This document shows positions 19,607 through 53,684 of a DNA stretch of 64,000 nucleotides, one piece after another; position 1 is the first letter of the stretch; every line of letters begins with the position of its first letter. Both the position numbers and the translations under genes were made by a program. The stretch covers positions 310,001 to 374,000 of the forward strand of contig JALDRJ010000002.1 of NCBI GenBank assembly GCA_031315865.1. The letters run 5' to 3'. The stretch is from Nitrospirales bacterium. GTDB taxonomy: Bacteria; Nitrospirota; Nitrospiria; Nitrospirales; UBA8639. Under the pieces are notes generated by a model. It was not told the origin of the DNA and ran no database searches. It saw only the letters and a program-made list of their open reading frames with translations.

Positions 19607-19622
19607 GTGTCTATTCCCCCTC

Positions 19623-20588: not shown

Positions 20589-20647
20589 CCCTTAGTACTC
20601 CTTAGATTTGATTAGTGAGGACATACCACCGACAATAAGATTGAATC

Positions 20648-22054: not shown

Positions 22055-24049
22055 TTAGCTTCCCGCCGCAGGTTGTGGCGCTGGCGTTCCAGGAACGGAT
22101 TCCTTAGCCGGAACAGGCGATGGTTTCATCCCCAACGCTCCAAGCCAGAAGACAAACATGATGGTAATCCAGAAGAACAATACATTAAACGAGATAACGT
22201 TCGCGGCAAAACCAATCGTGTGCGTATATGCCCAAGGCGAGTTATCACGCATAACTTCATTGACGTGCCAGAACAGTCTCACCGATGAACGTATATACCC
22301 CATTAACCCCATCATCCACGTAAATGCCGTGGCCAACATGATTAACGCGTATTGCGACCTAGGTTGAATCTGTCCCCACCTAATTGGACCAAGCTCTTTC
22401 GCCCCCTTCAACATCGCCAGGTTCAATGGAGTCATCAGGAACAGACACGAAAGAGTACCAGCGACCTGGGGGACCGACAGACCGATTCTCACGTTCGCAG
22501 GAATAAAGTATCCATAGCAGGCCAACCAAATATTGTTCAGCTGACCAATCAGGAAGAAACAACCCATAAATATATTTCCAAATTTAGACCAGCTTACCGT
22601 AGGAATTTTGTTCCCGCGCTGATACCAAATAAAGCTCAAAATCGTCGTCATAATAATGGCATTAATGCCGCCATTCTTGGCCGACATTACACCGTAATTC
22701 CCAAGTACCGGGTGCTGCTGTCCACCCATGGCTTTCAACTCAGCAGGCGTCATCACAATGGTATGCGGTGTAATAAACACCAAGAGACCACATACCAGAA
22801 TAAACACGAGATACTTGATATAACGCTGGAAGCGCTCGCCTCCAGTCATTCTCCCTAATGCCTGCCAGAGATAATAATTGGTTGTAAGGAAGAGAATTCC
22901 GATCATGGTAGCCTGGATAATAAACAACCACGCCAACAGTCCACCCATAAGCGTGATACCCATCTGCTGCCGATAAGCATACACTTCCCGCATAAGCCAG
23001 TAACCAGCAAACGGAAGCGGGATCAAGAACGCCACACCGAGACTCATGGCGATATATCCCATCCAATCATAATGCGCACGATCCTCATCAGTTTTAGCTG
23101 ACAAGAATCTATACGCTGCATAGGCTGCCACCACACCACCACCGAACGCCATATTCCCGAGGATTCGATGCACGTTCAATGGATTCCAAAGTGCAGTATG
23201 AAGCACATGCCAAATATTTCCAAGATAGCGACCCTGCTCATCAACGCCAGCGGGAGACATCATGAAGGCGATCCATGAATTCGCAAGGAACATGAGTACC
23301 GTCCCAATCACATTCAGGATCACACTCATGCTCACATGTACCCACTTAAGGACCCCCTCCTTCATCTGGTTCCAACCGTAATAATAGATATAAAGAGTGG
23401 CACTCTCCGCAACAAAGAGCAACGCATAAATATGCATCACCGGACGGAAAATACTCGACAAATAACCAAAGAAAGCAGGATAAAGAGTCAGGAAGGTAAA
23501 GATGAGAATCCCACCAAGAATAGCCGTAAGAGAATAGGCTGTCAAACTAATCTTGATAAAATCATAGGCCAACTTATCATACTTCGCAGCCATGGCCTTA
23601 TCCTTACTCACCAATCCGGCAAACTCGATACACATACAAAAGATCGGAACGGCAAGCACAAAGCTCCCATAGTAAAGATGCTGCTGGTTGGCCACCCACA
23701 GGAGCACTCGGCTCTCAAAATTATACCGAGGATAGAATTCTTCAGTGTCCTCGGTCTTAGGTGCCGGCATACCAATCGCTGGACCTTCAGTCTTATAATA
23801 GACATCTCGACCCATCTCGACTTTTTCTTCTTCGGCTCCTTCCCCGCCTTCACCGGCAGCCTCAGCAGCCGCTCGCGCCTCAAGAACTTCAGCTGGAGGT
23901 TTTCCGGCACCACCACCGCCACCGCCACCAGCCAATGCGGGAAGTGCCATAAAGATTGGGAGTACCAAAAGCCCAAGCATGGCAAATAAAGCCGTACCGG
24001 CCATCACCTTTTTACTGTTACGGGTCATTCGACCTAACAGGTGACCCAT
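22055..24049 (-). CDS. CydA-like bd-type oxidase subunit with exported N-terminal extension
   Basis: A 664-aa polytopic protein of the cytochrome bd ubiquinol oxidase subunit I superfamily. The N-terminus has a signal-like helix (about 16-40) ending in ALA, followed by poly-Gly and an Ala/Glu-rich linker of about 70 residues. The CydA-like core starts near residue 110. His124 in NQQHLYYG aligns with the first CydA haem ligand, and WVHVSMSVILNVIG with ANSWIAFMMSPAGVD resembles the second His helix and the ANGWMQNPVG block. Further conserved-looking His occur in NPLNVHR and TPHTIVMTP. No CydB is present. Such proteins are known in Nitrospira, where a bd-like oxidase was proposed as terminal oxidase. 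The ATG at 24049 follows AAAAGGAGG; translation from an upstream TTG is unlikely. A homologue lies at 27730-29643. Confidence 0.88.
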   Translation of the reverse strand: MGHLLGRMTRNSKKVMAGTALFAMLGLLVLPIFMALPALAGGGGGGGAGKPPAEVLEARAAAEAAGEGGEGAEEEKVEMGRDVYYKTEGPAIGMPAPKTEDTEEFYPRYNFESRVLLWVANQQHLYYGSFVLAVPIFCMCIEFAGLVSKDKAMAAKYDKLAYDFIKISLTAYSLTAILGGILIFTFLTLYPAFFGYLSSIFRPVMHIYALLFVAESATLYIYYYGWNQMKEGVLKWVHVSMSVILNVIGTVLMFLANSWIAFMMSPAGVDEQGRYLGNIWHVLHTALWNPLNVHRILGNMAFGGGVVAAYAAYRFLSAKTDEDRAHYDWMGYIAMSLGVAFLIPLPFAGYWLMREVYAYRQQMGITLMGGLLAWLFIIQATMIGILFLTTNYYLWQALGRMTGGERFQRYIKYLVFILVCGLLVFITPHTIVMTPAELKAMGGQQHPVLGNYGVMSAKNGGINAIIMTTILSFIWYQRGNKIPTVSWSKFGNIFMGCFFLIGQLNNIWLACYGYFIPANVRIGLSVPQVAGTLSCLFLMTPLNLAMLKGAKELGPIRWGQIQPRSQYALIMLATAFTWMMGLMGYIRSSVRLFWHVNEVMRDNSPWAYTHTIGFAANVISFNVLFFWITIMFVFWLGALGMKPSPVPAKESVPGTPAPQPAAGS

Positions 24050-24130
24050 GACCAACCTCCTTTTAAATTTGAGCAATTCTTTAATGTATCCAATGCGTTC
24101 TAAAAATTACTGATTGATCAACATCAAAAG

Positions 24131-24523: not shown

Positions 24524-24628
24524 ATGCGTACTAATGCAAAAGTGTTCGACATTATAGTTTTGGCCGGAATGGTTGTCAATATTATCCTCGCCGTCTTTCT
24601 GATCCTTTACTATTTCGATTTCCTCTAA
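24524..24628 (+). CDS. 34-aa hydrophobic membrane peptide
   Basis: ATG at 24524 follows GGGAAG at suitable spacing; the stop TAA is at 24626-24628. The peptide starts MRTNAKVFDIIVLAG and continues as one long Ile/Val/Leu helix, ending YYFDFL. It is divergent from the bd-like oxidase cluster and converges on the FGE-like gene, overlapping its last codon by four bases. Size, topology and position match the two peptides on the other side of the shared promoter region. No family recognised. Confidence 0.55.
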   Translation: MRTNAKVFDIIVLAGMVVNIILAVFLILYYFDFL

Positions 24629-25554: not shown

Positions 25555-25640
25555 GGATTCTAACCCACTCTCATCCTAGACTGACCAACTGACAAGAACA
25601 AGATTATTCTCGTTCCGCGTCACGACATTCCATTCATCTT

Positions 25641-26561: not shown

Positions 26562-26622
26562 TGACTTCCTCAAACCATCTGACGCAAGTCGCTCTCATCA
26601 GTTTCCACTCAGCTATGAAACA

Positions 26623-27049: not shown

Positions 27050-27733
27050 TTACTCGGCATGAACGCGTAAGCTTCCGAAGTCAACTTCGACGCCAGGTCC
27101 ACCAAGCAGAGAAATTCCCCAGGCTTTGGGCGCCGGTTCATGGTCATGGATTTTTTTAAAATCCTCATAGACATTAATTCTTTCTTCAACCCATTCGCCT
27201 TTCGGTTCGCCTCCAGTTCGAATGACGATTTCCGTCGATCCGAACATGCCTCCCTCCTTGATGGAACCGACGGGTTTATCCAGGCTCCAGACATACTTCG
27301 TATTCACCGGAATAAACATAAGGTCGGTATCGAGTGAAGGATAGACGGCAGCGATAAATTCCGCATCCTCTGGCACTGAATGAATCCTCCAGCGCCACGT
27401 TAAGATCGGATGCGTCCTGGGATCCCAGGAGATGCTTTTGGTATAGACGCGCTGACTGGCATTTTTGGCAGAGAGGAATGTCTCGCCATCGTTCTGACCG
27501 ATCGCGTACGTTTCTTGAGCGGTTGCCTTGCTTCGCTGCGCATCCCAATTTTTGGGAAAATTATTCTCATCAGCATCTGCAAAATCTTCCAACACGATGG
27601 ACTCGGCATCGGACTGCGCGGATACGTGTTGGGCCATTCCTGCATGGATGAAAATCCCGAAACCCACGACGCAACACCACCCAAGAGGTATCCATCGAAA
27701 GTTCAACAGTCGATGATAAACGCCTAATCTCAT
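27050..27733 (-). CDS. Exported DUF3047-like protein
   Basis: A 227-aa protein with an N-terminal signal segment (about 15-40, ending AQHVSAQ). The mature part resembles DUF3047: LEDFADADENNFPKNW, then LSAKNASQRVYTKSISW, the block PILTWRWRIHSVP, and a strand with KYVWSLDKP. It is probably a beta-sandwich periplasmic protein. The start overlaps the stop of the upstream CydA-like gene by four bases (ATGA), implying translational coupling with the oxidase subunit. Function unknown. Confidence 0.75.
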   Translation of the reverse strand: MRLGVYHRLLNFRWIPLGWCCVVGFGIFIHAGMAQHVSAQSDAESIVLEDFADADENNFPKNWDAQRSKATAQETYAIGQNDGETFLSAKNASQRVYTKSISWDPRTHPILTWRWRIHSVPEDAEFIAAVYPSLDTDLMFIPVNTKYVWSLDKPVGSIKEGGMFGSTEIVIRTGGEPKGEWVEERINVYEDFKKIHDHEPAPKAWGISLLGGPGVEVDFGSLRVHAE

Positions 27734-29643
27734 ACCGATGTTTCCTCTCGTGAAAGCGATTGAACAAGCGGAGTTGAAGCCGTCATTCGACTCTCGATCC
27801 GTTCATCCGCCGTTTGATAATCCCGCCGGCTTAACCAGAACATGCAAAACACCGAGGCCCAAAACAGCAGCATGTTGACCGTCACCATTTTCGCCGCAAA
27901 CCCTATAGCCGGCGTAAATGACCAGGGAGATACATCTTGCATGAGCTCATTCACATGCCAACCCAGCCGACCGGCTGATCGAATGTATCCCATTAGTCCC
28001 ATCACCCAGGTAAAGGCAGCGGCAACCCCGAATAACGCCACCATTCCGCGAATCGATATGTTTCCCCAGGCAATCGGGCCTCTCACCTTCGAACCTCGAA
28101 GCATGACATAATTTAGAAAAAGCCCACCGATCACCACCGTCGCCGTCGTGACCCCCTGCGGCATCGACAATCCCACACGCACGTTCGCTGGAATATAAAA
28201 CCCATAAATGGCCAGCCACACGATGTTAATCATGCCCAGGCCAAACATGGCCCCCAGGGCAATATTTCCAACCCGTTCCCATGAAACGGTCACGATGTGA
28301 TTGGCCCGCCGGTACAAGAGATAACTCAGTGCGGTCAAACATATCATGATGTTGATGGCCCCATTTTTGGCTGACATCACCCCGAACTGTCCAATCACAG
28401 GATGTTGCGCAGCCCCCATGGCTTTCATTTCACTCGGAGTCATCGCGATGGTATGGGGGGTAAACCAGACGATGAAACACCCCATCAACGCAAAGATGAT
28501 GGCTTTAAAATATGGATGAAAGCGTTCGCTTCCGGAGACTCGACCCAGCGATTGCCAAATGTAATAGTTGACCCCTAAAAAAAGCACGCCGACGGTAATG
28601 GCTTGAATCACGAACATCCACGAGAGGAGTCCACCCATCATCGTAATGCCCATTTGTGCGCGAAACTCAAATACCGCTTTCATCAACCAGTATCCCGCGA
28701 TAGGCATTGGCAACAGGGCACAGACGACGACAAGAATGAAAACATAGCCGACCCAATCATAATAGGCTCGTTCTTTTTCCGATCGAGTCGTGAGGAAGCG
28801 ATAGGCGGCATAGGCGACGACAACCGCCCCACCGGACATGATATCCGCCAAAAACCGGTGGGTATTAAGCGGATTCCAGAGAGGCGAATGCAATAAATGC
28901 CACACGTTCCCCAAGAACCGGCCATCGCCATCGACTCCGGATGGGGCCATCATGAAGGAGGCCCAGGCATTAGCCGACAGCAAGAGTACCGCTCCCATGG
29001 CATTCACCAGCACACCGATAGACATGTGAACCCATTTTTTACCCGATGACCTCAGATAATCCCAGCTGTAGTAGTACACCACCAGCAGAGACGACACGCC
29101 CACGAACACTCCGGCATACAGTGGCATGAGACTCTTAAACGTCGAACCCATGTACTTCATAAATCCAGGGTACAGTACGACGAAGACAGCTACGAGCGTC
29201 ACGCCTAACAGCGCTGTAAATGAGAGGGACACGACCGAAACCCGTATGATGTCACGTGCGAGACCATCGTATCGACGCGCCGATTCGGGATCACGACGAC
29301 AGAGGCCGAGAAACTCCAAGAGAACAGCAAAGAACGGGAGCGCCAGGACAAACCCGCCAAAATACGTATGTTGCTGCGTCACCAACCACACAAGCACCCG
29401 GTTATTGATGAATTGAAACACGGGATACGTTGTTTGCATTTCTTGGGCTGAGGGTCCACTCGGCGTCCCTTCCGTTTTATAGAAAATGTCTGAGGAGGCA
29501 GGAGAATCGGAGTAATAATTCGATGAGGACTCGGCATATGCTGGCGCTTTCTTGAAAAGTTCCCCTGCCAAGACGACGCCCAACGACATCAACAAGCACA
29601 CAAACCCCGCACGTTTCATCCATACCAACATGAAGTTTCTCAT
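27730..29643 (-). CDS. Second CydA-like bd-type oxidase subunit
   Basis: A 637-aa homologue of the product of 22055-24049, sharing layout and many blocks, for example QQHTYFGGFVLALPFF, KWVHMSIGVLVNAMG, ANAWASFMMAPSGVD, NPLNTHRFLADI, TPHTIAMTPSEMKAMG and SAKNGAINIMI. The N-terminus is a signal peptide (about 8-37, ending AYA) followed by a Ser/Tyr-rich linker containing YKTEG, a short motif also found in the linker of the other copy. No cytochrome c gene is in this cluster. It is coupled at both ends by ATGA overlaps: upstream to a polytopic membrane protein and downstream to DUF3047. Confidence 0.87.
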   Translation of the reverse strand: MRNFMLVWMKRAGFVCLLMSLGVVLAGELFKKAPAYAESSSNYYSDSPASSDIFYKTEGTPSGPSAQEMQTTYPVFQFINNRVLVWLVTQQHTYFGGFVLALPFFAVLLEFLGLCRRDPESARRYDGLARDIIRVSVVSLSFTALLGVTLVAVFVVLYPGFMKYMGSTFKSLMPLYAGVFVGVSSLLVVYYYSWDYLRSSGKKWVHMSIGVLVNAMGAVLLLSANAWASFMMAPSGVDGDGRFLGNVWHLLHSPLWNPLNTHRFLADIMSGGAVVVAYAAYRFLTTRSEKERAYYDWVGYVFILVVVCALLPMPIAGYWLMKAVFEFRAQMGITMMGGLLSWMFVIQAITVGVLFLGVNYYIWQSLGRVSGSERFHPYFKAIIFALMGCFIVWFTPHTIAMTPSEMKAMGAAQHPVIGQFGVMSAKNGAINIMICLTALSYLLYRRANHIVTVSWERVGNIALGAMFGLGMINIVWLAIYGFYIPANVRVGLSMPQGVTTATVVIGGLFLNYVMLRGSKVRGPIAWGNISIRGMVALFGVAAAFTWVMGLMGYIRSAGRLGWHVNELMQDVSPWSFTPAIGFAAKMVTVNMLLFWASVFCMFWLSRRDYQTADERIESRMTASTPLVQSLSREETSV

Positions 29644-33349: not shown

Positions 33350-34165
33350 TTACTTTACGTCAAAGTTCGCTTCAACGGTCGCACCATCTTTCACGTCGAC
33401 TTCGATTTCAATGGCTTTTTTCCCAACAGCGTTTTTTGCGGCGACAGGATGCCAAACTAACAATTTATGTTTTCCTGCCGGGACGTCCTTGATTTCGAAC
33501 GTTCCATCAGCGCCGGTGGTCGCATGAAACTTGTTCGTGACTGGAAGATACCAGGATTGCATGAACTCATGTTGATCACATTGCAACCGAACCACGCCTC
33601 CCTTACTCGCCATGCGAAGCATCAACGTCTTTTCCAACGAATCGCCTTTTTTGGCCAACCCGATGTTGAAGAGCGTAGCGGACTTCGCACCCAGGACATC
33701 AAAACTGTGAGGATTGTGAAGCACACCCTCTTTGGATTTCGGATCATCCGGATCGGCGTCGTTATTCGTCACTTTGAACTGCCCCTTACTCACAGCGACA
33801 CCCGTAAACGGCTTAAACTCGCACAAATCAGCCGTGACTTCTTGAGCCGGAGCCTTCTTAAACGTTCCTGTCCAGGCTTTGTCGTTAATGTCCCGAACGG
33901 CCACAATGGCGTCCTGAAGCCCTTTGCCATCACCAACTTGAACTTCTTTCAACAAACGGGTATTGCCATCTTTACTCTTATTCACATTTTTTTTACAGAA
34001 CTCCACGTTGGGGAACTTCGAGAAGGCAAATTCCTTGGGTGCCGGGACTTTGCCGCTGAAGGTCACTTTTCCTTTAATGGTTCCACCGGCATGCGCAATC
34101 ATCGGAGCGGCCATGAGTGCGGCTCCTGCAAGAAGACACATAGTAAGAGACTGACGATTTCTCAT
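33350..34165 (-). CDS. Exported cupredoxin-like protein with carboxypeptidase-regulatory domain
   Basis: A 271-aa protein with a signal peptide (1-26, ending AHAG). The central part resembles a blue-copper fold: His in VLHNPHSFDVLG, then the ligand loop CDQHEFM (Cys-x2-His-x2-Met), the geometry of type 1 copper sites. The C-terminal 70 residues form a CarboxypepD_reg-like beta-sandwich (ATTGADGTFEIKDVPAGKHKLLVWHP). Three further Cys (CKKN, LCEF) could be structural. It has its own strong promoter and terminator, so it is probably monocistronic and well expressed. It is homologous to the tandem pair at 38.6-40.4 kb. A periplasmic electron-carrier or copper-binding role is inferred. Confidence 0.82.
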   Translation of the reverse strand: MRNRQSLTMCLLAGAALMAAPMIAHAGGTIKGKVTFSGKVPAPKEFAFSKFPNVEFCKKNVNKSKDGNTRLLKEVQVGDGKGLQDAIVAVRDINDKAWTGTFKKAPAQEVTADLCEFKPFTGVAVSKGQFKVTNNDADPDDPKSKEGVLHNPHSFDVLGAKSATLFNIGLAKKGDSLEKTLMLRMASKGGVVRLQCDQHEFMQSWYLPVTNKFHATTGADGTFEIKDVPAGKHKLLVWHPVAAKNAVGKKAIEIEVDVKDGATVEANFDVK

Positions 34166-34469: not shown

Positions 34470-36371
34470 CTATCTAGACACTTCGATGAGTTCTTTATAC
34501 TGAATACTGATTTGACTGGGCTCTGAAATGGGTTCGGAACACAGCGTATCCGTGCATACGTACGCACGCGGCACAGGCGTTGCTGGAAACGAAATGGCAC
34601 CAAGGACTAATGAGTCTTCCCTCGGATCCAAGAGATGAACAATCCTGCCAGGCGCATAAAGAGTTAGGGCCTCTTGGAAAAGTCTAAAAGCTTTTTCATC
34701 GTCTCTTATTCCCACCACCACAACACGGACCGGATATTCAAGAAAACGAACAAGGGCCATACCTGTTAACCCAAGGGGAAGCTGATTCGATGAGCCCAAC
34801 ACATACCGAAGGGTTTGCTCCGCAACCTTAAGGTAAACCTGATTGTTTGTCACATAATACAGGTCAGATAAGTAGATCACTGCACGCAAATTCTCCGACA
34901 CTGATTTGTGGGGAAACTTTAAGAGCCCTTCCGCCGCAGCACGAATCGGACGATCATACAACCCCCCTCCTTGCTTATCTTGCAATTGGTTGATGAAATC
35001 CTGTGTCAGCCGCTCAGCCCGCATCAAATAGGTTTTATTGCCTGTCGTCAGCCATGCCTCTAATAATGCCCGGGCAAAGGCAACTTGATCTCCTAGCAGG
35101 CCAAATGCCTCCGGAGTCCCATCCTGTTCAAGATGCGCCATACCTCTCCCCCGCACATAACGATCGCGGTACAAACCATTGAGCATTTGTAATGCCCGTT
35201 CTAGAACTTTCTGATCCCCGAAAACTTGGTAGGCTTTGAGGCAGCTCTGAATCATTAGCCCATTCCACCCTGTATAGATTGTCCGGTCGACATTCGGAAC
35301 TCCTATCTTCATCCGCTCGGCGACATTCAGCCCAAAATACTCTTCTCCCGCCATGATAATGCGAGATGAGCTCGACACTTCTTTCACATCCGCATCTTGA
35401 CTCGCAAAAAATCCTCGCGCATGTTCATCAGATAAAAAAGTCCTGACATAGTGTAGGATATTATCCACCACCAACCGATACACTGGTTCACCCGTGACCT
35501 GATACGCCTCAAGATAGGTCTCAAGATTCATGGCTTGAAGATGCAGCATCTTTTCAAAATGAGGGTTCGTCCAATCGGCATTCACCGCATACCGGTAAAA
35601 ACCGCCCCAAACTGGGTCGATGAGATTTCGCTGTTGATCCAAGGTAAACAAGATCATGCGACGAAGAGCCTGATCCCGAGACTCATGATAGCGGCGAAAA
35701 AGAAAGGCGATCGTTTCTGACTCGAAAAACTTTGGCGCATCGCCAAACCCTCCATGAGTGCCATCAAAGTTCCGCTGGATCGTCGACGCGGTCTGTTCAA
35801 TGATTTCAGGATCGATCATTCCCGCAGGACGAACCCGGTTCTTCCTCGCTTCTTGCACGTTCGCCCAGATATCAGTGGCGTGGTTCAGCAATTCGCTCTT
35901 GTTATCACGATACAATTTTTCGGTCTCTCGTAGGGCTTCATACAAATCTTCCGGAACAAGAAAGTTCGCCTGGAACAGTATTTCTCCGGTCGGCATCAGA
36001 ATACTGGTCGTCGGCCACCCTCCATGCCGATAGCGTGCATCTATATCGGGACGTTGATCCGTATCGACTCGAATGGCGACAAACCTGGCATTGACGAAAT
36101 CCACGATCCTCGAATCCGCATAAGTCGTCTCATCCATGACATGACAGGCGTGACACCAGACCGCCGTCACATCAAGGAGAATGAGTTTGTCTTGTTCCTG
36201 CGCTATTCGAAACACCTCTTTGTTCCAAGACATCCAACGAATGGCTTGCGTCCGATCAGCAGAAGGAGTGACGACGGCAGGATGACTTGAAGGAGACGGA
36301 GAATAACAAGAACTGCAACTCAGGACGATCAACACGGCCAGCACACATCCTGAATCGAACTGAAACTTCAT
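34470..36371 (-). CDS. DUF255 thioredoxin-domain lipoprotein (YyaL/SSP411-like)
   Basis: A 633-aa protein. The N-terminus is a lipoprotein signal (LIVLSCSSC), so the mature protein is probably anchored in the periplasm. The thioredoxin-like domain (about 45-165) has the family motif VWCHACHVMDETTY with a redox Cys-x2-Cys and GGWPTTSILMPTG. An alpha/alpha-barrel of the glycoside-hydrolase-like type follows with DGTHGGFGDAPKFFE, WTNPHFEKMLHLQAMNLE and FFASQDAD, typical of DUF255 proteins. Most relatives are cytoplasmic and longer, so the lipidated version is slightly unusual. The substrate is unknown. Upstream of it, 67 bases away, lies the HEAT-repeat gene. Confidence 0.88.
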   Translation of the reverse strand: MKFQFDSGCVLAVLIVLSCSSCYSPSPSSHPAVVTPSADRTQAIRWMSWNKEVFRIAQEQDKLILLDVTAVWCHACHVMDETTYADSRIVDFVNARFVAIRVDTDQRPDIDARYRHGGWPTTSILMPTGEILFQANFLVPEDLYEALRETEKLYRDNKSELLNHATDIWANVQEARKNRVRPAGMIDPEIIEQTASTIQRNFDGTHGGFGDAPKFFESETIAFLFRRYHESRDQALRRMILFTLDQQRNLIDPVWGGFYRYAVNADWTNPHFEKMLHLQAMNLETYLEAYQVTGEPVYRLVVDNILHYVRTFLSDEHARGFFASQDADVKEVSSSSRIIMAGEEYFGLNVAERMKIGVPNVDRTIYTGWNGLMIQSCLKAYQVFGDQKVLERALQMLNGLYRDRYVRGRGMAHLEQDGTPEAFGLLGDQVAFARALLEAWLTTGNKTYLMRAERLTQDFINQLQDKQGGGLYDRPIRAAAEGLLKFPHKSVSENLRAVIYLSDLYYVTNNQVYLKVAEQTLRYVLGSSNQLPLGLTGMALVRFLEYPVRVVVVGIRDDEKAFRLFQEALTLYAPGRIVHLLDPREDSLVLGAISFPATPVPRAYVCTDTLCSEPISEPSQISIQYKELIEVSR

Positions 36372-36438: not shown

Positions 36439-37809
36439 TTACAGAGTGTTTGGACTCTCAAGCACTCGGACGATAGCCGCCGCTGCCGTCGCACGCACCG
36501 CTTCATCTTGATCTCGCAGTGCGAGTTTCAGGCGAGAAAGGGCTTGACGGTCACCAATGCGGCCTAACGATCGGGCCGCAGAAATTCTCGGTTTCGGCAC
36601 AGGGTCATTCAAGAATAACAACAACGTATTGACCACGTCCCGACCATGCCCATTCCCGAGAGCTCTCGCAACTCCAGAACGAATACCAGGGTTGGTATCA
36701 GACATGAGCATTCTTACTGTCTCCACGACAAGTCCAAAAGGGCTGCTCAGTTGCAACAAAGCCGCCACGGAGGCCGCCTGTACACCGGGGGAAGTCACAT
36801 GCAATCCTTCAGTCAAAGCTGGAATGGCTTGCTCAGCCTTCAATTGCCCAAGGCTTACGGAGGCAATGCTACGAACAACGGGGCTGTTGTCATTCAAAGC
36901 AGAGATGAGTAACCCTACAGCCTTCTTATCGTGAAGCTTTCCTAACGAAGAAGCTGCCGCCCCCCGAATGGAAGGTTGACTATCCTGCAATCCCTGCTCA
37001 AGAATTTTGAGGGCTTCATCATAACCCAATTCACCCATGATTCGAAAAGCCGTACTTCGTTCGTATCCCGTGCCCTGTTGAGCCTCTAGTTGAATGCGTC
37101 TCCAAAATTCCGGATGCCCAAGTTGAATCATCGTGCCAGCGGCGGTGATTTGCACGAGCTTCACTTCATCCTTCAACAGGGGGCGGATAAGTGGCTGAGT
37201 CGATGGATCGGCCAGACGTCCGAGTCCCCGCAACGCCGCTGCACGCACAAGACCAGCCTTATCCTTCAGCGCCTGACGGAATCGAGTCGATTTTCTCCCA
37301 CTGCTCAATCCAGCCAGGCCTTCGGCGGCCAGTGCGCGAATCATTCCGGATTTATCCTCTAGTCCCTCCTCTAGGTATGGAACGATGTCCTCGGTATGGA
37401 TTTCCTTCAAAGCCGTATAGGCCGCACCACGAATTTGCTCTCGCATATCCGTCCGAAACGGAAGGATGGCGGCTATAGCCAACTCTCTGAGTAAGGCATC
37501 ATTTTCTTGATCAGACTCCTTGAGAGTCTGATCATATGCCTCGATACTTTCCTTGGTCTTTCCAAGTCGCGCCAAGCTCAATATCTTTAGTCGCTGGGCA
37601 GAACCCTCGCCTTTTTCCTTCTCGCTAAGCTGATCCAATGAATCCAGGACATCCTGAAATTGTCCGTTGGCGTAGGCATGCTGGATTTGGCCAAAGTCCA
37701 GTTTCTCTTGAGAGTCGGCGGCCCAAGCACATGTCCCGTGGACAAATATGAGCGATAAAAACATGAACAGCTTCAAAGCTTGTGAATAGGTTTTCAATCT
37801 AGGCATCAC
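36439..37809 (-). CDS. Exported HEAT-repeat protein
   Basis: A 456-aa protein with a signal peptide (about 8-30, ending AWAAD), a short TPR-like helical segment (35-105) and then at least nine HEAT/PBS-lyase-type repeats of about 31 residues, with the recurring pattern IRxxAAxxLGxLxDxxAVxxL. Such superhelices bind proteins; relatives in the phycobilin lyase branch bind chromophores. With a signal peptide, the protein should sit in the periplasm or outer membrane. It lies between the DUF255 lipoprotein and the cupredoxin-fusion operon, all minus strand. Confidence 0.88.
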   Translation of the reverse strand: MMPRLKTYSQALKLFMFLSLIFVHGTCAWAADSQEKLDFGQIQHAYANGQFQDVLDSLDQLSEKEKGEGSAQRLKILSLARLGKTKESIEAYDQTLKESDQENDALLRELAIAAILPFRTDMREQIRGAAYTALKEIHTEDIVPYLEEGLEDKSGMIRALAAEGLAGLSSGRKSTRFRQALKDKAGLVRAAALRGLGRLADPSTQPLIRPLLKDEVKLVQITAAGTMIQLGHPEFWRRIQLEAQQGTGYERSTAFRIMGELGYDEALKILEQGLQDSQPSIRGAAASSLGKLHDKKAVGLLISALNDNSPVVRSIASVSLGQLKAEQAIPALTEGLHVTSPGVQAASVAALLQLSSPFGLVVETVRMLMSDTNPGIRSGVARALGNGHGRDVVNTLLLFLNDPVPKPRISAARSLGRIGDRQALSRLKLALRDQDEAVRATAAAAIVRVLESPNTL

Positions 37810-37901: not shown

Positions 37902-38579
37902 TCATTCTTCTTGATCGGGGTAGGATTCACGAGCTTCCACCTTTCGATAACCCAAGGGAATCTCAAAGTAAAAGTCAGGCTGTTGAGAGATAACCACATG
38001 TTCGTACTCTACCCACCAATCACGATCTCGACTGAGCAGTTTGAGAAGAACCTCTCGCTCAGCATCCACCCACTCATAGTAGGCCTCATGTTTGCCGGAT
38101 TCGGTGACGACTTCAACGTCAAATAATGTGGCTGGACGCTTACCGACGTACGCATCACCAATCAACGTTCGCTTTATTTCACCTTCTAGTGTCACCGAAA
38201 ACGGCAACACGTCCTGTTTGGTCACAGGCACACTTAAGACAAGCCGACGATCAGAGTAAATGTACCAGACCTTTCGTTGATCTAATCGAACAATCGTGAC
38301 CCCCGCAAAACCCAATTCAGTTTTTAATCCGCCAAAATACTCGATACGATATCGATTATCCTTGACGAATAATTGCGCTTTAGAGACCTTCCCCCCTCTT
38401 CGCCATATCAAACGAGCGGAAAATCCTGTCGTGGTTGGCACCGGAGAGGCGACAATACTGCTACCGATAGGATGTGAAGCCGAAAATGCCTGGGGGGCAT
38501 CACAGATAACCACGGTCACCAGAAGAATCGTGACGATTGCCTCTCTCCTGGCACAGAACCGGATCATCTCCCATTTCAT
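37902..38579 (-). CDS. Exported LolA-fold-like protein
   Basis: A 225-aa protein with a signal peptide (about 12-34). The mature part consists of regularly alternating beta strands, with pairs such as AQLFVKDNRYRIEYFGG, TIVRLDQRKVWYIYSDRRLVLSVPV and HEAYYEWVDAEREVLLKL. This is the pattern of outer-membrane-lipoprotein-sorting (LolA/DUF4412-like) half-barrels. Its start overlaps the stop of the upstream cupredoxin-fusion gene by four bases (ATGA), making it the third gene of that operon. Function unknown; a carrier of a hydrophobic group or a structural partner is possible. Confidence 0.65.
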   Translation of the reverse strand: MKWEMIRFCARREAIVTILLVTVVICDAPQAFSASHPIGSSIVASPVPTTTGFSARLIWRRGGKVSKAQLFVKDNRYRIEYFGGLKTELGFAGVTIVRLDQRKVWYIYSDRRLVLSVPVTKQDVLPFSVTLEGEIKRTLIGDAYVGKRPATLFDVEVVTESGKHEAYYEWVDAEREVLLKLLSRDRDWWVEYEHVVISQQPDFYFEIPLGYRKVEARESYPDQEE

Positions 38580-39529
38580 GGAAGCTGTTGTTCAAGCAAC
38601 GGCTGAATATCGATCGGACGGCCGAGAGCGGCAGGCGTGAATCGAGGCGGAGTTCGAATTTTATGTGCCGTCTGTCGCTCTCGTGGAGCAGGGAGCACAA
38701 AAGTGACCGAGAGCTTCTCATTTGGCTTTATCTCGACCATTTGTGTGACGACTTCCCTCACGCTTGGGTGCCAGGCTTGCACTCGATACCTACCAGGGGG
38801 AATGCGATCGATGGAAAATGTTCCATCGGACGACGTGAAAGCATAGTATGGATTTTCGACGGCAATCGCCCAACTCTCCATGTAAGCATGGAACCCACAT
38901 TGCATGACAAAAGTCTTTCGGCCCTTGCTCAAATGAAATTGTCGTACGAGCGACTCGCTGGGTTTGTGGTGATGGGCGGCATGCCTGTTGTCACGTTCAT
39001 GAAGACGATTGAATGGGAGCGGAGAATTAAATAAGACTCGCGTTCCCTGTTGTTTCGATGTTTCATAGGCCTGAATATCATGCATCACAGGATCCATATT
39101 AATCACCTCTACCCCATGCCCACTCCGTACGATCGTCGTAAATGGATGGAATTGACAATCCTTGGCTTCCACTCGAGGGATCGACAGAGTAAATGGTTTT
39201 CCGGCCTGAACCTCTTCAAAAAAGATGACAACATCTTTTACCTGTCCCTGATCGTTCACATGGAAGTCCTGTAACAAACGCCAACCATTCCCGGTCGATA
39301 TACGACCGCAATATTCGGGATCAGGAAAGGTCACGAGATTATACGCTTTTGGTTCGGGAGGTGAACCAGAGAGCGTCACGACGCCGGTGAGTGTGCCACC
39401 GTCTTCGACTTCTTTGATTTCATACCCAAAACTGCTTGCAATAAAGCTCATCGAGTACACGACCCACCCCAGGCACGCAAACAGATAGAAAGGCTTAAAA
39501 CCTCTGGTGAATACACGAATCGATTTCAT
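38576..39529 (-). CDS. Cupredoxin-like/carboxypeptidase-regulatory fusion protein, tandem copy 2
   Basis: A 317-aa exported protein with an N-terminal hydrophobic signal (about 12-34). It shares the ordered blocks of its upstream neighbour: YNLVTFPDPEYCGRISTG, a KDC pair, NMDPVMHDIQAYE with a likely copper-binding His, and MQCGFHAYMESW with a Cys-x2-His-x2-Met loop of the type 1 copper kind. A C-terminal CarboxypepD_reg-like domain (SSDGTFSIDRIPPGRYRVQAWHP) follows. A His-rich segment (DNRHAAHHHKP) sits between the copper half-sites. The gene is coupled on both sides by ATGA overlaps. Likely a periplasmic copper or electron-transfer protein (inference). Confidence 0.8.
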   Translation of the reverse strand: MKSIRVFTRGFKPFYLFACLGWVVYSMSFIASSFGYEIKEVEDGGTLTGVVTLSGSPPEPKAYNLVTFPDPEYCGRISTGNGWRLLQDFHVNDQGQVKDVVIFFEEVQAGKPFTLSIPRVEAKDCQFHPFTTIVRSGHGVEVINMDPVMHDIQAYETSKQQGTRVLFNSPLPFNRLHERDNRHAAHHHKPSESLVRQFHLSKGRKTFVMQCGFHAYMESWAIAVENPYYAFTSSDGTFSIDRIPPGRYRVQAWHPSVREVVTQMVEIKPNEKLSVTFVLPAPRERQTAHKIRTPPRFTPAALGRPIDIQPLLEQQLP

Positions 39530-40440
39530 GGTTTTTGTAGGCGAAGAGACGGAACGATCTCGACACCCTCCCCTAATAATTCAACACCAAAATGTGGATT
39601 ATCATGCATTTCATGAACGCTCCGCCGTCCTTTGACGGGTTCGTATTCAAAATCGTGGACGGTGGTCCCTTGAGGTTCGACTGAAATATCCTGCTGAAGG
39701 TACTTCTTCATACCTGGATGCCAGACCGTTAAAGTATAGTCCCCTGGAGGCACATCTGTGAGTTCAAACGCTCCATCCTCTTTGGTGATGGCATAATACG
39801 GGTTCTCGACGATCAACCCCCACGAGAACATATAAGGATGAAATCCACATTGCATGACAAAAATATTTCTTCCTTTACGCAGGTGAACATGTTCAATCAT
39901 CGGTTTTCCCGGCATATGCTTGTGGCTATTGAGCAGCCCGAGAACTTTATGAAAGGGATTCATCGGGAGCGGACGGTTAAATAACACTCGAGCCCCACGC
40001 TCTCTCGCCGTCTCATATCCTTGAATATCGTGTTCAATCGGGTCCATGTTGACGACCGTTAGCTCATCCTTTTTGCGAAGCACATTGACGAAGGGAAGGA
40101 AGTCGCAGTCGATCGCTTCAACACGTACCTTTTTCGTTTCAAATTTCTTCCCTTTTTTAATGTCTTTGAGCATCACAACGGCGTCTTTAAGCGCCCCGTC
40201 TGGAGCGACAATAAAGTCTTCAACGATTCGCCAGCCCGTTCCCGTGGAAATTCGTCCGCAATACACGGCATCGGGGATCGTCACGAGATTAAATGCCATA
40301 GCACGAGGTCTCTCACCCAATAACGTCACTTTTCCACGAATGGTCCCTCCATTTTTGACAGAAATTTCTTCATATGACCAAGCTTGGGCGGACATCCCCC
40401 CCAGAACTACCATACAGACCAGCAACTTCGACCACCACAT
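39526..40440 (-). CDS. Cupredoxin-like/carboxypeptidase-regulatory fusion protein, tandem copy 1
   Basis: A 304-aa exported protein: signal peptide about 1-20 ending in AWSYE, then FNLVTIPDAVYCGRISTG, NMDPIEHDIQGYE, MQCGFHPYMFSW (Cys-x2-His-x2-Met) and the C-terminal regulatory-like domain EDGAFELTDVPPGDYTLTVWHPG. Similarity to copy 2 across the whole length indicates tandem duplication. The ATG at 40440 sits behind AAAAGGGAGGTGATA, a near-ideal ribosome site; an in-frame TTG further upstream is rejected. It is the first gene of a three-gene coupled operon located just past the terminator of the giant multicopper oxidase. Confidence 0.82.
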   Translation of the reverse strand: MWWSKLLVCMVVLGGMSAQAWSYEEISVKNGGTIRGKVTLLGERPRAMAFNLVTIPDAVYCGRISTGTGWRIVEDFIVAPDGALKDAVVMLKDIKKGKKFETKKVRVEAIDCDFLPFVNVLRKKDELTVVNMDPIEHDIQGYETARERGARVLFNRPLPMNPFHKVLGLLNSHKHMPGKPMIEHVHLRKGRNIFVMQCGFHPYMFSWGLIVENPYYAITKEDGAFELTDVPPGDYTLTVWHPGMKKYLQQDISVEPQGTTVHDFEYEPVKGRRSVHEMHDNPHFGVELLGEGVEIVPSLRLQKP

Positions 40441-40522
40441 TATCACCTCCCTTTTCCCTCGCAAACATTATGCATCAGTATTAGGCCTCCTACACCCATA
40501 TTTATCAATATACACTACACAT

Positions 40523-40583: not shown

Positions 40584-43500
40584 TTACTTAAAGGCAACGG
40601 GCTTAATTGCACCATCTTCAGATGGGACTACCTTCGCTTCTTGCGCACCAGTATTCACCGCTCCGCTTAGCGGAAGAATACTCTTATCACTTTGAGGCAA
40701 CACCCGTAGCAGTCCCCATTGTCCTGACTGAGAATACGGGAGCCTGGCGTTTCCATAAATATAATCGCCAGGCAGAGCATACACACCACCAGCAGAAGCC
40801 ACAAAGGCATCGATAGATTCTGAACCGGCAAATTCGACAGTACTAATCATATCGGCGCCTGGCAGGAACGGCTCAATCGGCCATTCATGTTTCTCTAATG
40901 TAAACATGCTGTTTTGCTCGCTACTGGCTCCGAACACATGAATTCTGACAGGATCTCCAGCATGTGACATGATCGTAGGAGTAGCCGGATCCTTAGGATC
41001 ATCAACTTCGCAGGGCTGGAACATGCGGCCTAATGAACATCCTTGTGATTCACGGTACAAGTAGGGTTCATTGCGATAGTTAATACCCACCAAACCGGCG
41101 ACATTTTGCACGTATGGCATGAAGCTCGTTCCGATGATGTTATCTTCATCTTGGAAGAACAGCGCCACATCACGATAGTTTCCTCGTTTTTCGTTTCCTG
41201 CCACAGATTGATCGATCAACACATCTGCTTGCCAGGCATTTTTCAACGAGACATCAGCCCCAGTTTTCGGATCCCGGTACTGAGACCCTTTGGGGCCGAT
41301 AATGATGGCTCCAAACAGGCCGTTTCGAGGATTCATCGCTACGTTGCCAAAGTCCCATACCAACGTTTGCGTCTCTCCAATAAATGGATCAGCATAGTAT
41401 GTGTATGTCCGACTTTCTCCCGGAGCAATGGTTTGATCACCAGGATTCTGTCCCAGATTAACCCCTTGTGAATCCTTGGGGTCAAACGCCAGGCCAAAGG
41501 CTGAGAATGAAGCACGACTTTCTTTCATTTTGTTGGTCAAATTAACTTGAATACAATCTCCAACGTTGGCGCGTAAGGTTAAAGGCATGGGTTGATATTC
41601 ACCCGAAACCTTGCTGACCTCCTCCTCCAAGACGTAAATTTTTGCGTCGGGGTTTTGTATCTCAATTTTCCGTTCAAAGTCGACCTCAATAGCATCTTCC
41701 ACGTTCGGATTAAAACTCATGGACGGGAAGTCGATCGCAGCCACGTTAAATGCTCTCATTGGCGCATCTTTAGGACACACTGGAAGCGGTTCAGGCATAC
41801 CTTCTTTTCCATATGCCTTATTCGGAAGAGGCTGGAGGTCATCCACCGGCTTGTCGAGCACTCGAATCAATCCCCACGAACCTTCCGAGAACTTGGAACT
41901 TCTGCCATTGAAATACATATAGTCACCTGGAAGATGCCGTGGTCCCCCAGCTTCCGGAACAACAAGATCATATCGTTCAGCAATTCCAATATGTATGGAA
42001 TTTTTTCTGTTCGCTTCTTGTGCATACCGTTCAGTCCAGAATGTATGTCCTGAGACGGTAAACACATTACTTTCATTCATCGTTACATCGATCAGGCGGA
42101 ACACGACCGCATCCCCCAAGTAAGCCCTGATCGTTGGCGTGCTGGGTTCGCCGTGGATAGCGCTGCTAAAAAGCTGAGATGTATCGGAATTGTTCGCCAA
42201 ACGTTGAGCAAAAGGTTCGGCTCGGAAATTGAAGGCACCGCCCGTTGTATGGGTACCGCCATTCAAGAATGGCATCGGTGTCATCTTGATCTTTTCGTTC
42301 GGTGGCATGATGAACGAGACCGTTCGTCCAGCCTCCAAAGCGACTTCGATCGGCTGACCAGGAGGATTCCCTGCCGTAACGACATTGACGGTATGGGGAA
42401 CGGTATCCATGACATGTACCATCAACTCACGGAAACTTCCTGCCACATCATGACCAACCCGCTCAACCGTATGAATATCCGCGACTAGTCCTGTCCGGAT
42501 AGGCTTTCCAGTCTTTGGATCATGCCATGTTGACCCAAAAGGTTCGATAAGGAACGTACACACCGCTCCATGCGGCCACGTCGTTCCACCAAATGCATGA
42601 TCATGACAGAAGACTGATCCAACATCTGCGTCAGCCCAGAATCTTTGACGGACAAACTCAACGGTCACGATATCATCAACAGGATGATCGTGGGCTAGCG
42701 GTGTATCAAAAGTCAGCGTTTCTCCGCCCCCCCCTGCTGCGGGAGCCGATGACGATCCCTCTCCACCAGGAACCTTCAACGTTTTCCCGACTCTGATAAG
42801 GTTTGGATTGTCTATTCCGTTAAGGTCTCTCAGTTCGTTGACCGACACGCCAAGAGACGACGCGATCGCACCAAGTGAATCACCAGGATTTACTGTGTAG
42901 GAACCAGTTCCCGATGAGGCGGCCGACAAGGAGCTACCAGACCCTCCAATAGCGACAATCCGCTTAATTTCATCTTTCCCCACATTATCGACTCCGACAA
43001 GAATCAGAGTTCCAACATGGTACTGTTTCGCATTCGTGATATGTATGGTTTTATCGCCTTTCTTCGCGGCTTTCGTGAGCTTAGCGTTCATCGGAACAGG
43101 AAGGCCTTTTTTCTTTTCCTTCTCAAACATCGTAAATGGCCTCATGGACTGCTCATATGAGAATCCAGAAATGACCCCGTCCGATGCTTGGTTATCAAAC
43201 TGCACAAAATGAAAATGCGTGTTGATCTTGGATGACTGGAAATTCGTGATATCATCGTCTTCCCACTCGCTTGTCAGAGTCCAGTCCATACAATCATACA
43301 TGTTGGCACGAAACACGAGAGGATATTTCAAATCATTATTGGCTCGAATAGCTTCTTCTTCATCATGCACAACATAGAGCAACCCATTGGGATCAACGAT
43401 AGCTTCCTGATCTCCTTGAGCCGCAGATAATTCAACTGGGAGTTTAATGAAATGAATATTATACTTCTGCGATCCAGCCCTTTCCGGACAAAGGCTCCAT

Positions 43501-45731
43501 CGCCCGTTTTCTCCAGGCTTCGCTGGATTCACCGTTCTCTTGCCTTGGTCATCAACATGAATCATTTCCAACCATGGCGCCGGATTGTGATCCGGTGCGA
43601 ATGGAACGCGCTTTCCGAAGTGCGGCGTTAACCAGGGCCACGCCACTTTTCCGGTCGTTGGTTCAAACCAGATCGCCCGTCGCTCTCCGGCTGTATATCC
43701 TTGCCATTCCGGATGATACTTTGGGTTAGGACCAATATCGGCTTCCTTTTCACTCATAGCCTTATTGCCGTCCCAAACCCAGTCAATCACCGTCGCATCA
43801 TATGCTTTCAATTGTCCTTCCTGATCATCCTTATGACCCGGTTTCCCCTGAGTCACCAACTGCATCTCGACCCAATCCTTGATGTTCACGACTCTCGGGT
43901 CAGATTTCCAATCGCTCTTTCCGCTCGCTACGATATTAAATTTTGTCCCAAACCAATTGACAGTCGTCCCAACCAATTTGTCAGAACTCACAGGCTTATG
44001 GATTCGATCCAGACGGTCCGGGAGTTCACGCAACGGAGGCATGACATCGTTATGGAACCCTGGCACTTGCAGGGTGTTGTACACACGCCAATAGCCCCAC
44101 ATTCCTGACACGTAGTGATGAGCCACATGACAATGGAATAAAAAGTCTCCAGCCAACCATTGGCAAAGCCCTGAGCCACATTCCGTCTCAAGATCCAACG
44201 CTTCTGATGGCCCAATCACTTCGACGTCCACGCGGTCGGACTTCGTTCGGATGACAGGATATTTCACTGGACCATTTTGACCAGTATTCCAAACCGGCAT
44301 TTGAGTCGCACGGGGACTTCTTTGCCAGCGAATCGATCCACCATGGGGGTGGTGAGAATGGAACACTTCCGAACCACCGTGAACAATCCTGAATTTGGCA
44401 GGATCCCCCAGGTAGCTTCGAGGAATCGTAGGGGATGCATCGCCGAATGTATAACTGCTATACCCCATCGATTCATCTTCAAATCCAAAATATTCATGCT
44501 GCACATGCATGTTGTTAATGCCAAACGGTTCACTCCTGAAATTCAGGGCTCGTGCTCCAGGACGATAGGTATCCGTCAATGGGTCACGTTGTGGCAAAAA
44601 ATCTCCATGTTTGTTAACTGGCCGAAACGCTTCGTCACCAATTTCATGATAAATTAACACAAACTCCCGAAAATCAGGACCTTTGGGCGTGTCAATCATG
44701 ACTTGCCAACCACTTCTTGCTTCCGTCGCAGAACCAGTACCAAGTGGTTCCCAATACTTCGAGCCGGCAGGTTCGACAACAAATACGCCCATCATACCAA
44801 GAACCGTCAACTCCCGATCGTTGCTATAGGAATGAAATTGTTTCGCACCTTCCTGAGAGTCGGGATGGATATACCATTCCATTTCAATCTCAGATGATCC
44901 TTTTGGCGCATCGCCTTCTTCATCTTCCTCTTCACTTGCACCGGCAGCAATCGCATCGGGGTTGGTCGTAGTGGCAGGCTGCCCGGTCTTGCTCATGACC
45001 ATGTCAGAACCGTTGATGTGCAAGCTGACATCTTCCCCAAATTCTAGTTGATTCCGTAATGTAAATTTGACGCAATCACCTTGGTTGCCTCGAATGACCA
45101 AAGGTTGAATCCACTGGTCTTGGATGCCGTTTTTCACGGCTCCGGGGTCCATATGGCCTTCGGATTCTCGAGCTTCCGCATTTTTAGCTTCTTCTTCGCG
45201 GACTTTCTCGATGTTTTCCGTCAGGACGTACATATACCCAGGGTAATAATCCAGCCATTGATTCAACGTGACTTCTACGTTGATAGCAGAAATATCATAA
45301 TGTTTGACGGGAGCAGTCTTAGGACACAGCCCGCCTTTGCCGGAAACCGGCTCCTGCCCTGAACTGGACATCAAGAGTCCATTTTCTTTCCCGGCACCAT
45401 ACTGATGCATCATCGACATCGTATTAAAGGCTCCGGTATTAGGAGAATGAGCCATCTCCTTCTCCATTTGCTTCATCATTCGTTGATGCTGAAGCTCGAC
45501 CAAAGCAGCCCGTTCAGCCCGGCCTTCCACCGAATTTTCAACGATGGTCTGGCCTTTGAGTTTTTCTGCCCAAGCCGGGGCATCTTGATGTGTCATCCCC
45601 GTTTTGTGGACCATGTGATTGTTTGATTCCACATCTTCAGCTGATGCTGAAGCAAACGGCAAGAAAACGACGGCAGCTAAAATACTCAGCCACCTGAGTG
45701 ATGGATACGTTGATACCTTCTGATAAAACAT
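40584..45731 (-). CDS. Giant multicopper oxidase with internal LysM domain
   Basis: A 1715-aa exported protein with a signal peptide (1-31). Copper-site motifs occur in several places: HSHHPHGG near 457-464, the trinuclear/type 1 motif FHCHVAHHYVSGMWGYW starting at 532, THFHFVQFDNQASDG near 837-850 and FCHDHAFGG near 1040. Its C-terminal third has further cupredoxin-like blocks (GYWRVYN- and GQWGLLRVL-type strands) with fewer His, probably structural. A LysM domain (about 944-987, YTVNPGDSLGAIASSLGVSV) is inserted between Gly/Ser-rich linkers. Size and the HFHFVQFD block recall the MofA/McoA/MnxG type of very large bacterial multicopper oxidases linked with Mn(II) oxidation; that match is from memory. 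A strong AAGGAGG site precedes the ATG. Confidence 0.88.
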   Translation of the reverse strand: MFYQKVSTYPSLRWLSILAAVVFLPFASASAEDVESNNHMVHKTGMTHQDAPAWAEKLKGQTIVENSVEGRAERAALVELQHQRMMKQMEKEMAHSPNTGAFNTMSMMHQYGAGKENGLLMSSSGQEPVSGKGGLCPKTAPVKHYDISAINVEVTLNQWLDYYPGYMYVLTENIEKVREEEAKNAEARESEGHMDPGAVKNGIQDQWIQPLVIRGNQGDCVKFTLRNQLEFGEDVSLHINGSDMVMSKTGQPATTTNPDAIAAGASEEEDEEGDAPKGSSEIEMEWYIHPDSQEGAKQFHSYSNDRELTVLGMMGVFVVEPAGSKYWEPLGTGSATEARSGWQVMIDTPKGPDFREFVLIYHEIGDEAFRPVNKHGDFLPQRDPLTDTYRPGARALNFRSEPFGINNMHVQHEYFGFEDESMGYSSYTFGDASPTIPRSYLGDPAKFRIVHGGSEVFHSHHPHGGSIRWQRSPRATQMPVWNTGQNGPVKYPVIRTKSDRVDVEVIGPSEALDLETECGSGLCQWLAGDFLFHCHVAHHYVSGMWGYWRVYNTLQVPGFHNDVMPPLRELPDRLDRIHKPVSSDKLVGTTVNWFGTKFNIVASGKSDWKSDPRVVNIKDWVEMQLVTQGKPGHKDDQEGQLKAYDATVIDWVWDGNKAMSEKEADIGPNPKYHPEWQGYTAGERRAIWFEPTTGKVAWPWLTPHFGKRVPFAPDHNPAPWLEMIHVDDQGKRTVNPAKPGENGRWSLCPERAGSQKYNIHFIKLPVELSAAQGDQEAIVDPNGLLYVVHDEEEAIRANNDLKYPLVFRANMYDCMDWTLTSEWEDDDITNFQSSKINTHFHFVQFDNQASDGVISGFSYEQSMRPFTMFEKEKKKGLPVPMNAKLTKAAKKGDKTIHITNAKQYHVGTLILVGVDNVGKDEIKRIVAIGGSGSSLSAASSGTGSYTVNPGDSLGAIASSLGVSVNELRDLNGIDNPNLIRVGKTLKVPGGEGSSSAPAAGGGGETLTFDTPLAHDHPVDDIVTVEFVRQRFWADADVGSVFCHDHAFGGTTWPHGAVCTFLIEPFGSTWHDPKTGKPIRTGLVADIHTVERVGHDVAGSFRELMVHVMDTVPHTVNVVTAGNPPGQPIEVALEAGRTVSFIMPPNEKIKMTPMPFLNGGTHTTGGAFNFRAEPFAQRLANNSDTSQLFSSAIHGEPSTPTIRAYLGDAVVFRLIDVTMNESNVFTVSGHTFWTERYAQEANRKNSIHIGIAERYDLVVPEAGGPRHLPGDYMYFNGRSSKFSEGSWGLIRVLDKPVDDLQPLPNKAYGKEGMPEPLPVCPKDAPMRAFNVAAIDFPSMSFNPNVEDAIEVDFERKIEIQNPDAKIYVLEEEVSKVSGEYQPMPLTLRANVGDCIQVNLTNKMKESRASFSAFGLAFDPKDSQGVNLGQNPGDQTIAPGESRTYTYYADPFIGETQTLVWDFGNVAMNPRNGLFGAIIIGPKGSQYRDPKTGADVSLKNAWQADVLIDQSVAGNEKRGNYRDVALFFQDEDNIIGTSFMPYVQNVAGLVGINYRNEPYLYRESQGCSLGRMFQPCEVDDPKDPATPTIMSHAGDPVRIHVFGASSEQNSMFTLEKHEWPIEPFLPGADMISTVEFAGSESIDAFVASAGGVYALPGDYIYGNARLPYSQSGQWGLLRVLPQSDKSILPLSGAVNTGAQEAKVVPSEDGAIKPVAFK

Positions 45732-53616: not shown

Positions 53617-53684
53617 CCTACACCTGACGCGCTGCACCATCGCGGTGAAAGCAGCTCGCGGACCGATCCAAGACCAGCAGTCAA

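Follow-up and report, generated by a model that had tools for sequence, protein, structure and literature searches.

A LysM domain inserted into a giant MnxG-superfamily multicopper oxidase of a Nitrospirales bacterium

Introduction

Nitrospina gracilis and Ca. Nitrospira defluvii possess an MnxG-like multicopper oxidase (MCO) that, according to the published text, is highly conserved between both organisms and clusters in Nitrospina and Nitrospira with bd-like oxidases, cupredoxins and NXR; the same authors proposed that it protects against ROS by way of Mn(III) (Lucker et al., 2013, PMC3578206). Two novel MCOs are described in every Ca. Manganitrophaceae genome analysed (PMC9040806), and in the account of new marine Nitrospirales a bd-like oxidase is the presumed main terminal oxidase and sod genes are reported (PMC10579370).

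Here we describe the related locus of a Nitrospirales bacterium (assembly GCA_031315865.1), contained in a window of 64,000 nucleotides (positions 310,001 to 374,000 of contig JALDRJ010000002.1) to which all coordinates refer unless another record is named. The initial annotation of this DNA saw a MofA/McoA/MnxG-type oxidase in a nitrite-oxidiser-like genome, and the latter description fits, as three NxrA-sized molybdopterin ORFs (1149-1150 aa) are found elsewhere in the genome. As far as the published text allows the two to be likened, the MCO of N. gracilis and Ca. N. defluvii is of the same kind as the protein studied here (P0001), being MnxG-like and clustered with bd-like oxidases and cupredoxins, whereas NXR, part of the MCO cluster in those organisms (PMC3578206), corresponds here to NxrA-like ORFs away from the locus. 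The enzyme and its locus are already known; the part for which we found no description, in the open-licence literature on LysM with MCO and on Nitrospira MCOs, is the LysM-bearing form of this MnxG-type oxidase, and the word LysM is absent from the main text of Lucker et al. (2013, PMC3578206).

An intact giant multicopper oxidase with a complete ligand set

The 1715-aa ORF that had been singled out as a giant MCO is real and intact, starting with ATG, preceded by an AAGGAGG ribosome-binding site and containing no internal stops. Pfam matches its MCO domains weakly and its LysM domain, which had gone unmentioned in the initial annotation, clearly. An alignment with MnxG showed that the scattered copper motifs noted at that stage make up a single, complete MCO ligand set; the features concerned are as follows.

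40584..45731, minus strand: giant six-cupredoxin MCO, P0001, 1715 aa
45639..45731, minus strand: probable Sec signal peptide, residues 1-31, judged by eye from the sequence
44343..44360, minus strand: HSHHPH (HxxHxH), residues 458-463, type-1 ligand His458 and trinuclear ligands His461 and His463, by alignment
44100..44135, minus strand: HCHVAHHYVSGM, residues 533-544, trinuclear ligands His533 and His535 and type-1 ligands Cys534, His539 and Met544, by alignment
43209..43217, minus strand: HFH (HxH), residues 839-841, trinuclear ligands His839 and His841, by alignment
42597..42605, minus strand: HDH (HxH), residues 1043-1045, trinuclear ligands His1043 and His1045, by alignment

Compared with the MnxG order, 4/4 type-1 ligands (His, Cys, His, Met) and 8/8 trinuclear histidines are aligned, so that by alignment both the type-1 and the trinuclear set are intact (12/12 positions). 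The HFHFVQFDNQASDG block, in which the third of these motifs lies, comprises residues 839-852, and the column of His539 is Ala in PDB 9bxa, an entry titled Mnx H340A. Conservation was followed in an alignment of 83 rows, P0001 and 82 relatives, which counts ORFs of at least 1550 aa after removal of near-duplicates, shorter or broken copies being uncounted. All 12 ligand positions are identical in the 27 LysM forms (27/27), and they are kept in 55 to 56 of the 56 LysM-less forms, the range reflecting a single row that is masked at the HCH motif.

Relationship to MnxG and other multicopper oxidases

P0001 belongs to the MnxG superfamily of giant six-cupredoxin MCOs. Its sole strong PDB sequence match across the MCO part is Bacillus MnxG (PDB 9bxa, E 1.2e-77), and a profile of 57 relatives matches this entry at 4.7e-110, the alignment being colinear over cupredoxin domains 1 to 4. 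A structure model covering residues 125-1310 (pLDDT 69, pTM 0.70) has 9bxa as its top Foldseek match (E 1.7e-44, the second-best match being 9.2e-15) and aligns with it by VIA at Z 18.5 and rmsd 3.9 across 721 residues; since the HxxHxH stretch (model 330-400) has a pLDDT below 50, the model does not itself show copper geometry. MnxG of the Bacillus sp. PL-12 Mnx complex (9bxa) is likewise a six-cupredoxin protein with the type-1 site in domain 2 and cluster ligands divided between domains 2 and 3, and the order of motifs, HxxHxH, HCHxxxHxxxxM, HxH and HxH, is common to both. It differs from P0001 in length (1227 vs 1715 aa, with about 26% identity in the aligned part), in having no LysM, and in its clade and neighbour genes. 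P0001 is flanked by a transaminase upstream and cupredoxins downstream. In the Bacillus mnxEFG operon the small subunits MnxE and MnxF are encoded beside mnxG, and in a Priestia locus two small ORFs precede the MCO. A six-cupredoxin arrangement is also that of ceruloplasmin, in which the order of copper motifs differs from that of P0001. The matches of the P0001 model to ceruloplasmin (1kcw, Z 13.2, about 16% identity in the aligned part) and to blood factors reflect the common cupredoxin fold.

Within the superfamily, P0001 stands apart from the MnxG-like sequences. In a 19-row tree made by a quick method, in which Priestia L148 (1705 bits to 9bxa) is the one proxy for Bacillus-type MnxG, L013 and a Sphingobium protein are Pseudomonas-MnxG-like and MofA is not among the rows, P0001 falls into a Nitrospirota clade whose nearest outsider is a Streptomyces protein, and a split (100*) separates this clade and Streptomyces from Priestia L148, L013/Sphingobium and the haloarchaeal proteins. 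Pseudomonas MnxG has the superfamily in common with P0001, which matches its NCBIfam equivalog (NF041487) at E 1.6e-37 with 128.1 bits against a cut-off of 3100 bits. A position of P0001 inside the MnxG-like branch is rejected by this score together with the separate Nitrospirota clade of the quick tree. Of the initial assignment, the MnxG part stands for the superfamily, by sequence, fold and ligands, but not for the MnxG-like branch, and the phylogeny that had been suggested as a check does not group P0001 with MnxG-like sequences. TIGR01480, the family of the copper-resistance MCO CopA, is absent among the family matches of P0001 at E up to 0.01.

Distribution and the case for manganese

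In our listing the MCO is present in 5/5 genomes of the genus and 48/48 of the family, the match running unbroken through the insert in at least 30 of the 48 family genomes. Across a sample of the phylum, 187 of 395 genomes match P0001, 25 of the 187 lying outside the class with weak matches; within the class 162 of 163 sampled genomes match, the one without a match being an order- or class-level relative, provided that the listing follows kinship, as it seems to. All unbroken through-insert matches in this sample (20/20, among the matches listed) fall within the host's family. The relatives come mostly from Nitrospirales and Nitrospira MAGs. Four records titled Opitutales, Nitrosomonas and Nitrospinota (L126, L127, L064, L092) contain Nitrospirales-type MCOs at 77-79% identity, probably as a result of misbinning or mislabelling.

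The gene is all but universal in the class and was already described in the 2013 text (PMC3578206), so the MCO does not widen the metabolism of this organism as a special feature, contrary to what the initial annotation had suggested; and because nearly every sampled class member carries it, the label MnxG-like is no evidence of Mn(II) oxidation. It has to be weighed whether P0001 is in function a Mn(II) oxidase, generating Mn(III) or Mn oxide at or near the wall for ROS protection or Mn use. This seems rather unlikely to us, even though the Mn(II) oxidase complex Mnx is its closest relative of known structure, a Ca. Manganitrophus homologue (L114) is 55% identical to it, the genome gave no match to the Fe/Mn SOD family, and the Mn(III)/ROS-defence proposal has been published for the Nitrospina/Nitrospira homologue (PMC3578206). 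The clade of P0001 is separate from MnxG-type sequences (128 vs 3100 bits), its near universality reaches far beyond known Mn oxidisers, and a Cu/Zn SOD is present in the genome. Moreover, the genome encodes a third giant MCO (L013:5828-11590, minus strand; C2 about 3510828-3516590) of 1920 aa with full copper motifs, which is closer to MnxG (649 bits to NF041487) and, judged from this score, would make a stronger candidate for a Mn(II) oxidase than P0001.

A hairpin of domain 3 carries the LysM insert

The feature that sets P0001 apart from its LysM-less relatives is an insert in the third cupredoxin domain.

42768..42899, minus strand: LysM domain, residues 945-988, Pfam PF01476, E 1.2e-14, 54.4 bits against a cut-off of 20.9
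42729..42947, minus strand: insert with Gly/Ser-rich linkers, residues 929-1001, by alignment

Residues 929-1001 are missing from the LysM-less paralogue and from orthologues outside the host's taxonomic family. In LysM-less relatives a short turn, such as RIKSIKGDTISF in L072, joins two strands of the copper-cluster domain 3, and in the LysM forms the same hairpin turn holds a Gly/Ser linker, the LysM and a second linker. In two models, one of residues 125-1310 and one of domain 3, the LysM appears as a beta-alpha-alpha-beta unit of its own, with linkers of low confidence on either side. Placed on flexible linkers in this turn, the domain could reach the wall and stay clear of the copper sites, and peptidoglycan binding by P0001 would be in keeping with the nature of the domain, which is of a type that commonly attaches to the cell wall. 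LysM is also found in proteins that do not remain on the wall, and the whole genome has 12 LysM matches. The insert has a G+C content of 55.7% versus 48.7% for the gene, a composition that is not strikingly foreign, and dN/dS of the LysM is uninformative since synonymous sites are saturated.

We consider it improbable that the LysM sits in its surface turn as a neutral passenger that does no anchoring. Its mean pairwise identity of 63% versus 92% for domain 2 makes it less conserved than the core, and LysM-less paralogues are kept in the same genomes, as would be expected of a passenger. However, not one of the 27 forms has an indel inside the LysM, although the insert region as a whole ranges in length from 75 to 91 aa; the domain still matches its profile at the E-value listed above, and one form, L060, retains it although the rest of the gene is paralogue-like.

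A cysteine pair that covaries with LysM

The LysM forms carry a second change in domain 3, next to one of the copper ligands.

42606..42608, minus strand: Cys1042, replacing Trp beside His1043 and paired with Cys1058, by alignment
42558..42560, minus strand: Cys1058, replacing Gly and paired with Cys1042, by alignment

Positions 1042 and 1058 are C/C in 26 of 27 LysM forms, the exception being L060 with W/G. The 56 LysM-less forms have W/G in 54 cases, W/S in one (the second copy in L083) and C/C in one (L070), and in the 19-row superfamily alignment C/C is limited to P0001 and L070. In the domain 3 model both positions lie on neighbouring strand segments (304-309 and 323-329; the model as a whole has a mean pLDDT of 73), a modelled arrangement that makes a disulfide plausible.

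The history of the two changes was followed in trees of the whole protein (83 rows) and of three parts (80 rows), all made by a quick method, the part trees leaving out three long-branch rows (the second copy in L083, L114 and L116). L070, which is C/C and LysM-less, lies outside the LysM group, and LysM-less W/G paralogues are nested among the LysM forms. An AU test on 49 of the 83 rows rejected a single LysM clade, whether all 27 LysM rows were included (p 8.6e-5) or L060 was left out (p 0.0087), so that the history is not one simple gain. We read the order of events as C/C first and LysM next, followed in the paralogue by LysM loss with return to W/G, or by gene conversion. L060:9989-15094, in which a paralogue-like backbone with W/G carries a LysM at the canonical locus, looks like a recombinant, probably from a gene conversion that retained the LysM.

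A conserved locus with cupredoxins and bd-like oxidases

The copper carrier-like proteins and two bd-like oxidases that the initial annotation placed around the MCO are indeed present, as three cupredoxin-like and two bd-like genes.

39526..40464, minus strand: cupredoxin-like protein, CGFHPYM (CxxHxxM), directly downstream of P0001
38576..39529, minus strand: second cupredoxin-like protein, CGFHAYM (CxxHxxM), 4-base overlap with the gene at 39526..40464
37902..38579, minus strand: conserved 225-aa locus protein, no Pfam match
36439..37809, minus strand: HEAT-repeat locus protein
34470..36371, minus strand: thioredoxin-fold (DsbH-like) locus protein
33350..34165, minus strand: third cupredoxin-like protein, CDQHEFM (CxxHxxM)
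27730..29643, minus strand: cytochrome bd-like oxidase, PF01654 E 1.7e-17, conserved locus member by synteny where contigs extend
22055..24076, minus strand: second cytochrome bd-like oxidase, PF01654 E 4.6e-18

Followed as far as each contig reached, the order in LysM-form loci is transaminase, MCO, two cupredoxins, 225-aa protein, HEAT, DsbH-like, third cupredoxin, methyltransferase, DUF420 and PCP_red. When matches with E no higher than 1e-10 and a query coverage of 50% or more are counted, a cupredoxin is directly downstream in 25 of the 26 LysM loci besides the window, the remaining one stopping at a contig edge, and 41 of 56 LysM-less loci have a downstream cupredoxin; of the other 15, seven are near a contig edge and eight have room, so a cupredoxin partner is not obligatory. 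LysM-less orthologues occupy the same locus in several other Nitrospira-type genomes (e.g., L083, L088, L072), and LysM-less paralogues (e.g., L012) are found at other loci, often with one cupredoxin.

Several further genes of the window were recorded. Two adjoining FGE-sulfatase (formylglycine-generating type) proteins lie between the bd-like genes (24625-26573, minus strand), and homologues of these also occur downstream of LysM-less MCOs in several loci. Three c-type cytochromes, one fused to an ethylbenzene-dehydrogenase-type domain, stand beside a bd-like oxidase (17726-21964, minus strand), a protein of 500 aa, encoded about 6 kb from the MCO (52138-53640, minus strand), has a domain of the MbnB/TglH/ChrH type (RiPP modification; E 5.7e-11), and a phage tail sheath-like protein (8554-9702, minus strand) adjoins secF and secD.

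Other copper enzymes of the genome

The same genome encodes a LysM-less paralogue (C2:3056103-3060974) that is 80 to 81% identical to P0001 outside the insert and has the same ligands and likewise a cupredoxin gene directly downstream, but differs in the missing LysM, in Trp/Gly at 1042/1058 and in its locus. The LysM-less paralogue L012:8101-13014 (plus strand, 80 to 81% identical) has an apparent sigma-54 activator upstream; on its downstream side lie a cupredoxin-like gene and what was read by eye as a Crp/Fnr-like regulator. A NirK-like protein scores below its cut-off.

A canonical CopA is encoded elsewhere in the genome by an ORF distinct from P0001 (TIGR01480, 809.5 bits, above cut-off). 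This bears on the suggestion that P0001 works either as an oxidase of copper homeostasis, maintaining periplasmic copper in the Cu(II) state, or as a six-cupredoxin copper store; we consider this unlikely. The cupredoxin neighbours would suit such a role, and the Streptomyces protein, nearest non-Nitrospirota relative in the tree, adjoins a CopC gene; yet the locus of P0001 carries respiratory genes and not copper resistance genes, and in view of the CopA elsewhere the copper-protecting role put forward in the initial annotation is not specifically indicated. With CopA and the Cu/Zn SOD present, a purely copper-detoxifying or periplasmic superoxide role appears less needed.

A possible wall-held oxidase

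Our preferred reading, to which we give a probability of about 0.6, is that P0001 is a periplasmic giant MCO of the MnxG superfamily that reduces O2 and is held on peptidoglycan by its internal LysM. Once loaded with copper, the enzyme would accept electrons singly at one type-1 copper in cupredoxin domain 2 (His458, Cys534, His539, Met544), from where the His-Cys-His bridge would pass them to the trinuclear cluster (eight His) common to domains 2 and 3, at which O2 would be reduced to water. Beside His1043, a C1042/C1058 disulfide would probably take the place of Trp/Gly packing. As direct donors, the co-encoded type-1 cupredoxins are the likeliest, if tentative, candidates, being placed first because cupredoxins are often paired with MCOs; Mn(II) or Fe(II) is a second and rather doubtful choice, and Cu(I) a third and still less likely one.

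A wider picture may be drawn more speculatively, in which the insertion of LysM into a cupredoxin domain with half of the copper cluster tethered a respiratory-type enzyme to the wall, with the coupled change from W/G to C/C beside a ligand. One oxidase would then occupy two places in the periplasm, at the wall as the copy in the cupredoxin/bd-like locus and free as the paralogue. If true, O2 reduction (or Mn(III) formation) would be placed at the wall of these nitrite oxidisers. The comparison also guards against an annotation error, that of reading MnxG-like as Mn(II) oxidation. Few proteins of Nitrospira-type nitrite oxidisers are as conserved and as poorly understood as the giant MCO, and a single genome that has the enzyme with and without a possible anchor, and with a Cys pair tied to that anchor, offers a handle on its place and role.
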